A stretch of DNA of 64,000 bases from the NCBI RefSeq assembly GCF_000419525.1, contig NZ_ATTE01000001.1, positions 1,674,001-1,738,000 on the forward strand, written 5' to 3'. Origin of the DNA: Leucothrix mucor DSM 2157. GTDB lineage: Bacteria; Pseudomonadota; Gammaproteobacteria; Thiotrichales; Thiotrichaceae. This document shows, piece by piece, positions 5,591-8,951 of this stretch. A program made the translations under genes and the position numbers. The number at the start of each line of letters is the position of its first letter. Position 1 is the first letter of the stretch. The notes under the pieces are model-generated. The model had not been told where the DNA came from, searched no databases, and saw only the letters and a list, made by a program, of their open reading frames with translations.

Positions 5591-5607
5591 GACCTTACCC
5601 ATGACAA

Positions 5608-5634
5608 GCCTTGATTCGAATGGTGTATCAAGGC
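5608..5634. terminator. Hairpin between convergent genes, likely bidirectional terminator
   Basis: GCCTTGAT at 5608-5615 pairs with ATCAAGGC at 5627-5634 around an 11-base loop, lying between the ends of pgpA (+) and the MetE-like gene (-). There is no strong T tract on either side, so termination is inferred from structure and position only. Confidence 0.45.
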
Positions 5635-5646
5635 CTGACTCAACGC

Positions 5647-6645
5647 TTAAGCCACTTGCTTGGCAGGGCGCTTTACATCATCCGGACGGTTAGAGCGTGG
5701 CAAACGTACCGGCTGAGAGAACCCAGCTTCAGTTAGCGCCTTAGCCAAGGTATTTAACTCACGGATTTTCTGCAACACAAAGGCATTCTCAGCTGTTGCC
5801 GTGCCGGCAACTTCCGCATCCATATCTTCAACCGGCAAGTGCTGGAATGACAGATTAGTCGCTAACCATAAACGCTCTTTCAAGCGCTTAGCGAATGGTT
5901 GCAGGCGAGCTAATAAATCGCCCAAATCTGCTTTTACCAAAGACTCTGCACTGACTACGCCTAGCGATAAAATCTTATGGCGTGGCAACCAATCAATCAC
6001 GCGCAATACTTGCTCTGGCGCACGACAAGCATCAATGTGCAGCGCCTGTACGGGCAACTGAGCGGCCAGCTGTAAATTCTTATTCAATGCACCAAAGCTA
6101 CTAGCCACCATGATTTTAACCGGCGCACGCTGTAATCTGAAATAGCTGCTGCGGTAAGCATGCGTCCATTCACGGCTCAGCGGCTGCGATAACATTGGCT
6201 CATCCAACTGCAACCAAGGCAGTTTTGTTTCGCCTAGTTTGCTTAGCAATTTAGCGTATAAAGGCAGAACTTTATCTAGCAGCGCTAAACGCTGTGAATC
6301 ATCCGTACACTCAACAGACCAGACCAAGCTAACCGGACCAAGGATAACCGCTTTGCACTGGTAGCCGGCTTTCGCCACGCGCTCAACCTGTGCCACTAAC
6401 TCGCTGGCATCTAATGTCAGTGCTGCGTCATTAGTCATTACTGGCGCATTGTAATACTGCGTGCTATCGAACCACTCACGGCTCTTAGTTGCAGTCTGCT
6501 CCAAACCAAACAGGTGGTGATTAAACGCCAGCTGCTCGGTTACACTGCCAGCTTGCAAGGTTAACCAATCAGTGTGCACACGCTCATTAGCCGGGGCGAG
6601 TGTAGCGGCGGTATAAACCTGGCCTAATGTGTGTGTGGTAATCAT
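5647..6645 (-). CDS. Stand-alone MetE N-terminal-domain protein
   Basis: The 332 residues align with the N-terminal barrel of cobalamin-independent methionine synthase (MetE): HTLG at the start, WFDSTQYYNAPV, KAVILGPVSLVWSVE, LDKVLPLYAKLL, LQLDEPMLSQPL, LPVQALHIDACRAPE and ERLWLATNLSFQHLPV. The catalytic C-terminal barrel with the zinc ligands (His, Cys, Glu, Cys) is entirely absent, and the stop follows directly. Part of the N-terminal lysine-rich folate-binding segment of full MetE is also missing. It therefore cannot be a complete methionine synthase. It faces a MetR-like regulator across a 107-base gap holding an inverted repeat. Its role is unknown: a partner of a separate catalytic half, or a repurposed domain. 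Confidence 0.85.
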   Translation of the reverse strand: MITTHTLGQVYTAATLAPANERVHTDWLTLQAGSVTEQLAFNHHLFGLEQTATKSREWFDSTQYYNAPVMTNDAALTLDASELVAQVERVAKAGYQCKAVILGPVSLVWSVECTDDSQRLALLDKVLPLYAKLLSKLGETKLPWLQLDEPMLSQPLSREWTHAYRSSYFRLQRAPVKIMVASSFGALNKNLQLAAQLPVQALHIDACRAPEQVLRVIDWLPRHKILSLGVVSAESLVKADLGDLLARLQPFAKRLKERLWLATNLSFQHLPVEDMDAEVAGTATAENAFVLQKIRELNTLAKALTEAGFSQPVRLPRSNRPDDVKRPAKQVA

Positions 6646-6716
6646 AAATGGTCCTTAAATTTGCTGTCTGTTAGTCTATGATTGCAGTTTACAGCGATAG
6701 ATTGATGATGAATAAT

Positions 6717-6734
6717 GATAGTTACACAACTATC
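6717..6734. promoter_or_regulatory. Inverted repeat in divergent promoter, candidate MetR-like operator
   Basis: GATAGTT (6717-6723) and AACTATC (6728-6734) form a perfect 7-base inverted repeat around ACAC, 19 bases before the regulator ATG. LysR-type regulators normally bind such imperfect dyads in divergent promoters and control both themselves and the facing gene. The sequence is not the E. coli MetR consensus TGAA-N5-TTCA, so assignment rests on position. Confidence 0.4.
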
Positions 6735-6752
6735 CATGAGCAGAACTAATCA

Positions 6753-7640
6753 ATGATAGAGCGCATTCACTTACAGATCATTCTCGCTTTGCATCAGTAC
6801 AAGACACTGACCGCCGCCGCCAGCTCACTAAATCTCTCGCAATCCGCGCTATCACACCAGATCAAACACTTAGAAGAGCGCTTAGGCGCTAAATTGTGGC
6901 AAAAAGAAGGGCGTCTATTGCGCTTAACCCAGCCCGGCGAGCAATTACTTAGCTGTGCGCAAAGCGTGATACCGGTATTGCAGCGGACCGAGCAGACTCT
7001 GCAAGCCTACGCAGAAGGGCGTCAGGGGAACTTGCGTATAGGCGTGGAGTGTTATCCCTGCTATGAGTGGCTAACGCGGGTAATTGCGGACTTTTTACAA
7101 GCCTCGCCAGATGTCGATGTGGATATTGTGCAGAAGTTTCAGTTTTCCGGTGTTGAGGGCTTACTGAATCACTCGGTCGACTTACTGATTACGCCTGACC
7201 CCTTTGAAAACCCATCGCTGATTTTTGAAGATTTGTTTGATTATGAATTGGTGCTGATGGTGGCTAAAGATCATCCGCTGGCTGATGTGGAGTATTGCAC
7301 CCCGCCAATGCTATCTGATCAAACCTTGATATTATTTCCAGTGCCAATTGATCGATTGGATATTTACACCGAGTTTTTGATACCTGCGCACGTCAGTCCA
7401 AAAGCGCAGAAATTCACAGAGTCGATTGAAATGATGTTGCAGTTGACCGTCTGCCAGCGCGGTGTGTTTACGCTACCGCGCTGGCTGGCAAATCATTACT
7501 GTGAGCAATATCCACTTAAGCCCGTAAAACTGGGTAAAGAGGGCGTCTATAAAACGCTGTTTGCTGCCTTCAAAAAGATCGATATTGAAACACCGTATAT
7601 CCATAGCTTTTTAGAGCTGGGAAAGCAAAAACAGCTTTAA
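6753..7640 (+). CDS. LysR-family regulator, MetR-like
   Basis: A 295-residue LysR-type regulator. The winged helix-turn-helix is at about residues 1-60 (TLTAAASSLNLSQSALSHQIKHLEERLGAKLW), followed by an effector domain that begins LRIGVECYPCYEWL. That stretch corresponds to the MetR segment that senses homocysteine. It is divergent from the MetE-domain gene, the same arrangement as metR-metE in enterics, which strengthens the MetR-like call. Whether it responds to homocysteine and controls only the neighbour is inferred. Confidence 0.82.
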   Translation: MIERIHLQIILALHQYKTLTAAASSLNLSQSALSHQIKHLEERLGAKLWQKEGRLLRLTQPGEQLLSCAQSVIPVLQRTEQTLQAYAEGRQGNLRIGVECYPCYEWLTRVIADFLQASPDVDVDIVQKFQFSGVEGLLNHSVDLLITPDPFENPSLIFEDLFDYELVLMVAKDHPLADVEYCTPPMLSDQTLILFPVPIDRLDIYTEFLIPAHVSPKAQKFTESIEMMLQLTVCQRGVFTLPRWLANHYCEQYPLKPVKLGKEGVYKTLFAAFKKIDIETPYIHSFLELGKQKQL

Positions 7641-7679: not shown

Positions 7680-8951
7680 TTATTCCCAAGGCTGCTCGCG
7701 AGTACGAACCACCAAATCATTCTCCAACGTACGATGCACCGGACAACGATCTGCAATCTCAATCAACCGCTTGCGCTGCGCCTCGGTCAAATCGCCTTTA
7801 AGCTCAATATCGCGAGTAATGCGTTCGATTTTTCCGCTTTGGCCTTCACAGTCGGCGCAATCATCGGTATGAATACGCTCATGCTTTAGGCGCACATTGA
7901 TATCTTCCAACGGGATTTTCTTGTGATTGGCATACATGCGAATCGTCATCGACGTGCAGGAGCCTAATGCCATTAACAGCAAATCATAAGGACTTGGGCC
8001 AAGGTTGCGACCACCAAAACTGACCGGCTCATCGGATAACACATGATGGTCTTCGGTATACAAACCACGCAGGAACTTTTGGTCCTTTTCAGTCACCAGT
8101 ACTTCGCCATGCTCCAAGGTTTTCACCAAGGCTGGAACATTTTCAGACATGGTCAGCTGTACAGCCTCATCCGAATCCAGCGGCGCTTCATCTAAATAAC
8201 GATCAGCCCAGCTAGCCAGCGTCTGTGCCACAAACTCAGCGTCAGCGGCTTTGGATAACATATGATCTGCATGATCCAGCGAAATAAAGCTCTTTGGATG
8301 CTTGGCCGCCTTGTAAATTCTAGCTGCTTCATCAACCGATACAATGTTATCAATCGGTGAATGAAATACCATCAGCGGGCGGCGTAGGTGGCCAATATGC
8401 TCAACATCAGCATGAGCGCGTAAATCATCCAGCAGCTGCTTTTGAACGTTAAATTTGCGTCCGCCAATATTGACTTCTGCTTTGCCATTGGCCTCCAGTT
8501 CACTCTGTGAGCCGGTAAACAAATGTTGTACGTGATCAGCGGTTGCTGGTGCGCCAATCGTCGCTAACGCTTTAATTGATGGCATACGATCAACTGCGCT
8601 TAGGATCGCGGCTCCACCTAGACTGTGCCCAATCAATAATTGCGGTGCTTTAAAGTCGCGCTCCATCATGGCAGTGGCAGCCAGCAAATCATCCACATTG
8701 GAGGAGAAGTTGGTGTTGCCAAAATCCCCGTCGCTATTGCCTAAGCCCGTGAAGTCAAAGCGAAATACCGCAATGCCATGCTTGGTTAATGCGCGTGAAA
8801 TTCGTGAGGCAGCAGCGATATCCTTACCGCAAGTAAAGCAGTGGGCAAACAGCGCGTAGCTGCGAATGGCAGAACCTTCTGCGGGCGTTTCCATTAAGCC
8901 AGCTAATTGCTGACCTTGGGCGTTATCAAACGTGACTTTTTGGCGGGGCAT
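7680..8951 (-). CDS. Alpha/beta hydrolase-OsmC fusion protein
   Basis: The 423 residues join two domains. The N-terminal alpha/beta hydrolase (about 1-250) has the nucleophile elbow GHSLGG and a late SLDHADHML segment carrying the likely catalytic His. The C-terminal OsmC/Ohr-type domain (about 270-423) has the two conserved cysteines, in MALGSCTSMTIR and IADRCPVHRTLEN, that reduce organic hydroperoxides in this family. This fusion recurs in proteobacteria. A plausible role is hydrolysis plus peroxide reduction, perhaps of acylated or fatty hydroperoxides; the substrate is not shown. No signal peptide, so cytoplasmic. Confidence 0.9.
   Translation of the reverse strand: MPRQKVTFDNAQGQQLAGLMETPAEGSAIRSYALFAHCFTCGKDIAAASRISRALTKHGIAVFRFDFTGLGNSDGDFGNTNFSSNVDDLLAATAMMERDFKAPQLLIGHSLGGAAILSAVDRMPSIKALATIGAPATADHVQHLFTGSQSELEANGKAEVNIGGRKFNVQKQLLDDLRAHADVEHIGHLRRPLMVFHSPIDNIVSVDEAARIYKAAKHPKSFISLDHADHMLSKAADAEFVAQTLASWADRYLDEAPLDSDEAVQLTMSENVPALVKTLEHGEVLVTEKDQKFLRGLYTEDHHVLSDEPVSFGGRNLGPSPYDLLLMALGSCTSMTIRMYANHKKIPLEDINVRLKHERIHTDDCADCEGQSGKIERITRDIELKGDLTEAQRKRLIEIADRCPVHRTLENDLVVRTREQPWE

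Follow-up and report, generated by a model that had tools for sequence, protein, structure and literature searches.

The window analysed here, the whole 64,000-nucleotide stretch of the Leucothrix mucor genome, contains a gene for the N-terminal half of the methionine synthase MetE that lacks the catalytic half, a leftover that has probably gained a non-catalytic job. We call its product a MetE-derived pseudoenzyme which, judged by its sequence, would functionally be a member of neither MetE nor split MetE. Our preferred reading, whose chances we regard as evenly balanced, is that of a selected, MetR-controlled, non-catalytic barrel that has evolved recurrently and acts via protein contact. 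An earlier note on this DNA had recognised the lone half and suggested that it is kept for a purpose, an interpretation that our analysis supports in part.

A stand-alone MetE N-terminal barrel

The gene and its surroundings comprise the following features.

5605 to 5637, reverse strand: hairpin between convergent pgpA and the MetE N-terminal gene (z -2.21), a possible terminator
5647 to 6645, reverse strand: 332-aa open reading frame with an ATG start, a stand-alone MetE N-terminal (beta-alpha)8 barrel
6646 to 6752, no strand: spacer common to both divergent genes, with a metR-proximal block partly conserved in congeners G003 and G005 (by eye)
6688 to 6716, forward strand: promoter-like TTTACA-17-AATAAT for metR, a consensus match only
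6717 to 6734, no strand: inverted repeat GATAGTT-acac-AACTATC (GATAGTT-N4-AACTATC), the sole exact copy in the genome
6736 to 6750, forward strand: degenerate MetR-box-like site ATGAGCAGAACTAAT (ATGAG-N5-CTAAT), just before the metR start and adjoining the inverted repeat
6753 to 7640, forward strand: divergent MetR-like LysR regulator gene, best NCBIfam match MetR NF011950

The hairpin has no strong T run and is missing from the terminator scan list. The 332-aa protein matches Meth_synt_1 (PF08267) with residues 49-254 against profile positions 102-311 of 313 (134.5 bits, E 7.5e-39), the first ~100 profile positions being unmatched, and this match together with the length of the frame confirms the stand-alone N-terminal barrel that the earlier note had proposed. 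Comparison with Meth_synt_2 (PF01717) upholds the assignment, as that profile gives a weak match of 23 bits to residues 49-261, nearly the same stretch, because the two MetE barrels are homologous. The protein also has the properties by which N-subunits of split MetE are recognised in the accessible part of PMC7857596, namely a PF08267 score above the PF01717 score and a length of at most 400 aa.

An AlphaFold2 model made from a five-sequence alignment (mean pLDDT 68, pTM 0.73) contains ten predicted strands, eight of which were assigned by hand to the barrel; strand positions depend on this model of pLDDT 68, in which strand 1 falls below 50. The best matches of the model among solved structures are MetE enzymes, with residues 1-311 superposed by VIA-align on residues 1-380 of Candida MetE (Z 26.0, rmsd 3.8, 300 aligned), followed by the single-barrel synthase 3rpd (Z 22.1) and uroporphyrinogen decarboxylases (Z ~19). 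As modelled, the window protein is a MetE N-terminal barrel with pieces removed and no new fold.

Stand-alone copies in the genus and in other lineages

Across 57 genomes, our own included, orthologues with open frames of similar length occur in congeners G003 and G005; both are intact, and they are 65% and 58% identical to the window protein. These three copies are referred to as Leucothrix-type. The remaining four of the seven genomes of the genus (G001, G002, G004 and G006, with G001 56% and G004 69% complete) give no match to the N-terminal half. In G001 the locus is in place and metR is kept (84% identity), with the MetE N-terminal gene missing, and G006 is without either gene. As to conservation among relatives, which the earlier note had wished to see checked, the frames of G003 and G005 are intact, and the absences in G001 and G006 count against its interpretation. 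In G002 a metR-like gene (51%) precedes genes for MesX (PF08908, 602 bits) and for a Meth_synt_2 protein whose start resembles that of MesD (L073 2-2370, reverse strand, and L077), and within one genus this type of regulator is therefore seen beside a stand-alone MetE N-terminal barrel, a MesX-MesD pair, or neither. An ACT-domain gene lies between pgpA and the locus in G005 (L021:6029-6421) and G001 (L072:1071-1475; domain Pfam-tested for L072) and is absent in the window.

A profile of the three copies matched 17 of 63 genomes of the family, 12 with full MetE and five with stand-alone genes. The new stand-alone genes, in G407 and G408, belong to a second genus (g5). The G407 copy (317 aa) is divergent from metR, and the G408 copy is cut by a contig end at 167 aa; among the other g5 genomes four have full MetE divergent from metR and six have no match. 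Full-length metE faces metR in related genera just as the window gene does. In a survey of the phylum, in which 106 of 398 genomes gave a match, the only frame found was short and clear of contig ends in our own genome and in G479, G647, G707 and G765 of family f160, which we guess to be a Pseudomonadaceae-like gammaproteobacterial family, the label Thiotrichaceae-type for the Leucothrix-type and g5 copies being a guess of the same kind; a sixth genome, G286, is split by contig ends. No catalytic half follows the f160 copies within the 9-10 kb around each. The G479 gene is directly divergent from metR, and in G707 a single gene separates the copy from metR; the 9-10 kb around each of the G647 and G765 copies gave no metR match.

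A very diverged stand-alone copy of 313 aa (PF08267, 80 bits) is present in G256, with no metR match in the 13.6 kb around it; the search there for a catalytic half covered these 13.6 kb and the PF08267 matches listed in the class survey. By eye, the genes next to this copy (L120:9019-9960) resemble those of a TetR regulator and an S9 peptidase. In G099 and G293, short MetE frames were rejected as stand-alone copies, being due to contig ends. The idea that the stand-alone genes are a MetE start joined to the last residues of the enzyme gained no clear support from their C-terminal tails, inspected by eye.

Parts lost from the barrel

The window protein has ~48 residues in place of ~100 in MetE. 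Gone are the alpha1 segment including the Arg and Lys of the folate tail, most of the beta2-alpha2 hairpin, and the linker. In Thermotoga maritima MetE, Arg15 and Lys18 contact the folate tail and Lys104 the pterin, and the alpha1 region, the long hairpins and the alpha8 loop form the contacts between barrels (accessible text of PMC539065). In the window protein the alpha1 part with the first two contacts is deleted or replaced and the Lys104 position is Glu57, with the alignment columns assigned by hand from the RELK and KWF motifs; the partial loss of the folate-lysine segment claimed by the earlier note is thus borne out.

The same parts were compared in eight stand-alone copies (G256 and G408 left out) and a hand-chosen set of 24 full-length MetE. 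The alpha1 segment keeps 11 of 39 residues in the three Leucothrix-type copies and 11-14 in the four readable copies of this type and the second genus, all four having lost the Arg15 and Lys18 positions, whereas each of the 24 full MetE has all 39. The four f160 copies retain the segment (37-39 of 39), with the Arg in two and the Lys in two. The hairpin, 35-44 residues long in full MetE, is reduced to 6-26 residues in seven of the eight copies (36 in the eighth, G707) and in Leucothrix-type copies to 6-9 of ~40. The Lys104 position is replaced in every copy except that of G707 (7/8) and in none of the 24 full MetE. The loop that precedes alpha8, an inter-barrel part of 22 residues, is represented by 15-21 residues in Leucothrix-type copies and is almost complete in the window protein, with 21; strands 3 to 8 are retained nearly in full. 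By this alignment, the lost parts are those that would formerly have bound folate or touched the catalytic barrel, and other lineages appear to have lost some of them.

Conservation has shifted along the barrel

Invariant positions were counted near the C-terminal (top, catalytic) and the N-terminal (bottom) ends of the eight strands. Among full MetE in the first setting the top was more conserved in all 2024 of 2024 triplets (mean 0.65 versus 0.38 for the bottom), and bottom minus top reached at most -0.07 in that setting and +0.08 in the settings restricted to strands 3-8. The Leucothrix-type triplet, at an overall identity similar to that of full MetE, gives 0.51 for the top and 0.76 for the bottom (+0.25), a difference reached by 0/2024 full triplets in each of six settings. 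Of 276 full pairs, none or one reaches the value of the g5 pair (top 0.74, bottom 0.88), and the f160 triplet (0.66 and 0.69) is equalled by no full triplet in five settings and by 73/2024 in one; in the first setting no full set reaches the value of any of the three lineages. Triplets of mixed lineage have a weaker bottom excess, matched, depending on the setting, by between 0 and 656 of the 2024 full triplets, which suggests that each lineage may conserve different bottom residues. The charge of the bottom face is +6 to +7 in Leucothrix-type copies, -2 to +4 in full MetE and -3 to +3 in the other stand-alone copies. On the predicted model, conservation has moved away from the barrel top and towards its bottom, a pattern that full MetE does not have, and it is mainly because of this shift, read from the alignment and the predicted model, that we propose a role in protein contact.

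The obvious other reading of this shift is that a lone barrel is under stronger structural constraint. One rival explanation of the gene is that the protein has no useful job and that selection merely keeps a strongly expressed leftover from misfolding, an explanation that we consider improbable, though worth weighing. Such selection would likewise favour deletion of sticky loops between the barrels, and the interface loops are indeed trimmed; the branches are long (1.81 and 0.72 substitutions per site); the classical top pocket shows no concentration of conserved positions (28/56 versus 112/244, p 0.34), whereas strand beginnings do (34/45 versus 106/255), which could be structural; and the gene is lost in G001. 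However, silencing or deletion would be expected of a gene without use, and this one persists across ~0.9 protein substitutions per site between our genome and G005, and its bottom is more conserved than that of full MetE at similar overall identity.

We give similarly little credence to a novel enzymatic or ligand-binding function of the top pocket. The predicted barrel with its eight assigned strands would be compatible with such a function, and H5, D148, E149, H203 and D205 are invariant in all eight stand-alone copies compared. These residues are, however, equally invariant in the 24 full MetE and may be merely ancestral, conservation of the top face is lower than in full MetE, and a Cys of strand 8 has been lost in Leucothrix-type copies.

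Selection on the stand-alone gene

The three Leucothrix-type pairs have dN/dS of 0.063, 0.130 and 0.103, with likelihood gains of 138-194 over dN/dS = 1, and the second genus has 0.05 (one pair, 167 codons), so that 2dlnL across the pairs of both groups is 120-194; since synonymous sites are saturated (dS 2.8-3.9), these values are rough, though clearly below 1. For comparison, five of six metR pairs give 0.01-0.04 (the sixth was not fitted), the five pairs that could be fitted, of seven involving f160 copies, give 0.06-0.13, and for pairs of full MetE from that family the range is 0.04-0.08. The gene is thus under purifying selection, and the suggestion that it is kept for a purpose stands in the sense of selection (dN/dS 0.06-0.13) only.

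That the gene is a neutral remnant on its way out is hard to believe, although its presence among relatives is patchy and broken MetE frames do exist: in a class survey of 369 genomes, at least 117 of them with a match, at least three (G062, G063 and G353) have internal stops in MetE. Such frames are what decay looks like, and they differ from the stand-alone genes in having stops inside. The pervasive frameshifts that the earlier note named as the mark of a remnant are not found in the two congeners that have the gene, all three Leucothrix-type frames being intact, and these frames together with dN/dS far below 1 lead us to reject a decaying remnant.

Number of origins

In a tree of the regulators, the metR of G407 is sister to that of G010, which faces a full MetE (100/99), and the clade of these two (99/98) excludes the Leucothrix-type metRs (100/100). 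The metR locus of the second genus is as such separate from that of Leucothrix and groups in the tree with a locus that has full MetE, which argues for separate reductions in the two genera if transfer of just the short gene is set aside; going by these sequences, the second genus probably reduced its MetE separately from the Leucothrix-type copies, and reduction probably also occurred in further lineages.

One origin of all stand-alone copies was rejected: a tree of the N-terminal halves is indecisive on this point, and the metR tree favours separate loci. The five Thiotrichaceae-type copies group together weakly (66/92), and constraining the second genus with the full MetE of G010 gives an equally good tree (p-AU 0.575). 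On the tree of 34 sequences (10 stand-alone and 24 full), in which the bootstrap is unsettled and the branches of G256 and G765 are very long, the stand-alone label needs six changes (bootstrap 4-7), just two of which are forced by well-supported branches; between the first and the second version of this tree, 7 of 21 full sequences were dropped and 10 others added. Three shared derived residues were seen in the two Thiotrichaceae-type lineages against a simulated mean of 1.0, and 18 of 200 simulations were as high, an excess that is not significant. The motif QRxPxK at strand 5 is found in 8 of 10 stand-alone copies (the G408 fragment also shows it; G256 is without it) and was rejected as a mark of these copies, being present also in 6 of 24 full MetE, five of them in f160, so that in the f160 stand-alone copies it was probably inherited.

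Absence of a catalytic half

The 332-aa frame stops before the catalytic barrel with its zinc ligands (His-x-Cys, Glu, Cys) and as such encodes neither that half of MetE nor a core methionine synthase of the MesA-MesD kind. The genome itself (5.19 Mb in two contigs, listed completeness 100) contains no second PF01717 or PF08267 match at E<=0.001, which means that a recognisable catalytic half is absent elsewhere. The missing catalytic half of the earlier note, which had called for a genome-wide search for a separate C-terminal half or core-MetE, is thereby confirmed. The window protein cannot be a methionine synthase. Our genome contains a complete MetH with homocysteine, pterin, cobalamin and activation domains, and MetH is also present in G003 and G407; it was not found in G005 (64% complete) or G408 (80% complete).

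Despite the precedent of split MetE, whose subunits are adjacent or, rarely, distant (PMC7857596, accessible text), an N-subunit with its catalytic partner elsewhere is unlikely, indeed the least credible of the explanations considered, as no catalytic subunit and no other PF01717 match were found in our own genome, for which we reject a distant half, nor another such match in the carriers G005, G407 and G408 (64-87% complete), the folate contacts and inter-barrel parts are lost, and a distant Meth_synt_2 protein of G003 has no counterpart in our genome. The latter protein (L102:1744-2865, 373 aa, 48 bits) has His-x-Cys, Glu and Cys motifs by eye, and its gene adjoins cupin-like and RraA-like genes (by eye), possibly as part of a catabolic cluster.

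The MetR-like neighbour and the shared spacer

The divergent LysR gene agrees with the MetR-like regulator of the earlier note. MetR NF011950 is the best of 57 families matched, with 184.3 bits against a cut-off of 382, and we therefore name the protein MetR-like. The proposed inverted-repeat operator fares less well: the repeat is present but differs from the published MetR motif, ATGAA-N5-TTCAT (PMC4239095, accessible text), and with up to two mismatches it occurs at eight places in the genome versus 26 for a control pattern, and so marks no MetR regulon.

The adjoining site ATGAGCAGAACTAAT has three mismatches to the published motif and one to ATGAR-N5-YTCAT. Sites with at most one deviation from the latter occur in four of five stand-alone spacers (our own genome, G003, G407 and G479), the G003 spacer having a perfect consensus box and that of G005 none, and MetR-box-like sites were found in 4/4 spacers scanned between full-length metE and metR. 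Most of these sites either span the metR start or directly precede it, with that of G407 ~50 bases before it (by eye). The pattern ATGAR-N5-YTMAT occurs once in the window, at 6736-6750, where 1.27 occurrences are expected, and is weak evidence on its own because the pattern was loosened after the site had been seen.

No MetR-like box with at most one deviation was found in the 400 bases before metH of our genome, and metH is divergent from an ArsR-type regulator fused to a methyltransferase (seen on L096, bases before metH at 2908), which we take to be possibly of the SahR type. Based on these sequence features, MetH is probably not controlled by the MetR-like protein. A gene for an alpha/beta hydrolase fused to an OsmC domain (window 7680-8951, reverse strand) adjoins metR, and does likewise in G005 and G004.

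Discussion

According to the accessible text of PMC4239095, the core of the MetR regulon is metR and metE, often as a divergon, and the window retains this arrangement of Proteobacteria with a box-like site near the metR start; it differs in that only the non-catalytic half of the metE partner is left. The window protein resembles the tandem barrel of MetE in the sequence and predicted fold of its N-terminal barrel and in the divergence of its gene from metR, and differs in lacking the catalytic zinc barrel, the linker, the folate segment, most of the hairpin, and Lys104. As in the N-subunit of split MetE (Pyrococcus PF1268 type, in the portion of PMC7857596 available), a PF08267 protein of less than 400 residues is encoded alone. 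In contrast to that subunit, it has no catalytic partner that was found in the genome, has lost interface parts, and is encoded next to a metR-like gene in an organism that also has MetH. As far as the same portion goes, split MetE is found mainly in Archaea and is also reported from a Sulfobacillus, with the N-terminal half encoded alone together with a catalytic partner, and 107 genomes were scored as split MetE when candidates for both halves were found. The core methionine synthases (MesA-MesD and core-MetE) are likewise half-size relatives of MetE, but consist of the catalytic half alone (PMC7005905 and PMC7857596, accessible parts), where the window protein is the other half. The earlier note's view of core-MetE as the reverse case is correct in this respect, although N-terminal halves encoded alone are known from split MetE. 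The N-terminal barrel of MetE is itself described as the product of an enzyme domain duplication that has had its own sites erased (PMC539065, accessible text). In the accessible texts of the literature searched, which included PMC9069715 and PMC13059711, we found no description of a bacterial MetE N-terminal half without a catalytic half.

The preferred reading of a selected, non-catalytic barrel would start from an ancestor with full-length MetE in a metR-metE divergon, which may have lost the catalytic half and the linker, presumably because MetH sufficed. The remaining barrel would then have shed the parts that held folate and touched the catalytic barrel, and, barring transfer of the short gene by itself, two genera or more would have undergone this reduction separately. 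The MetR-like protein would, by analogy with MetR, sense the methionine state and, from the layout and the box, most likely induce the divergent gene when homocysteine builds up. As its sequence suggests, the product would fold as a closed barrel that lacks both the folate contacts and the zinc-homocysteine half, and the pattern of conservation points to a partner protein that may be bound by the bottom face. Such a protein would have an accessory or regulatory role in the methionine cycle. A more specific version, that MetE repeatedly became a homocysteine-regulated barrel whose new bottom face controls, for example, MetH or MetR, is offered tentatively. If it is true, parallel evolution has made a class of pseudo-methionine-synthases, which would go unnoticed because the N-terminal profile sees them as MetE.

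A dead half of an enzyme here survives alone under selection, apparently more than once, and as such offers a replicated natural experiment in how a pseudoenzyme domain gains an independent role. Annotation by the N-terminal profile may call such genes B12-independent methionine synthase, and B12 dependence would then be mispredicted. We also note that Thiothrix subterranea has an annotated metE on a 151 kb plasmid (NZ_CP133216.1), which suggests that metE may move in this group.
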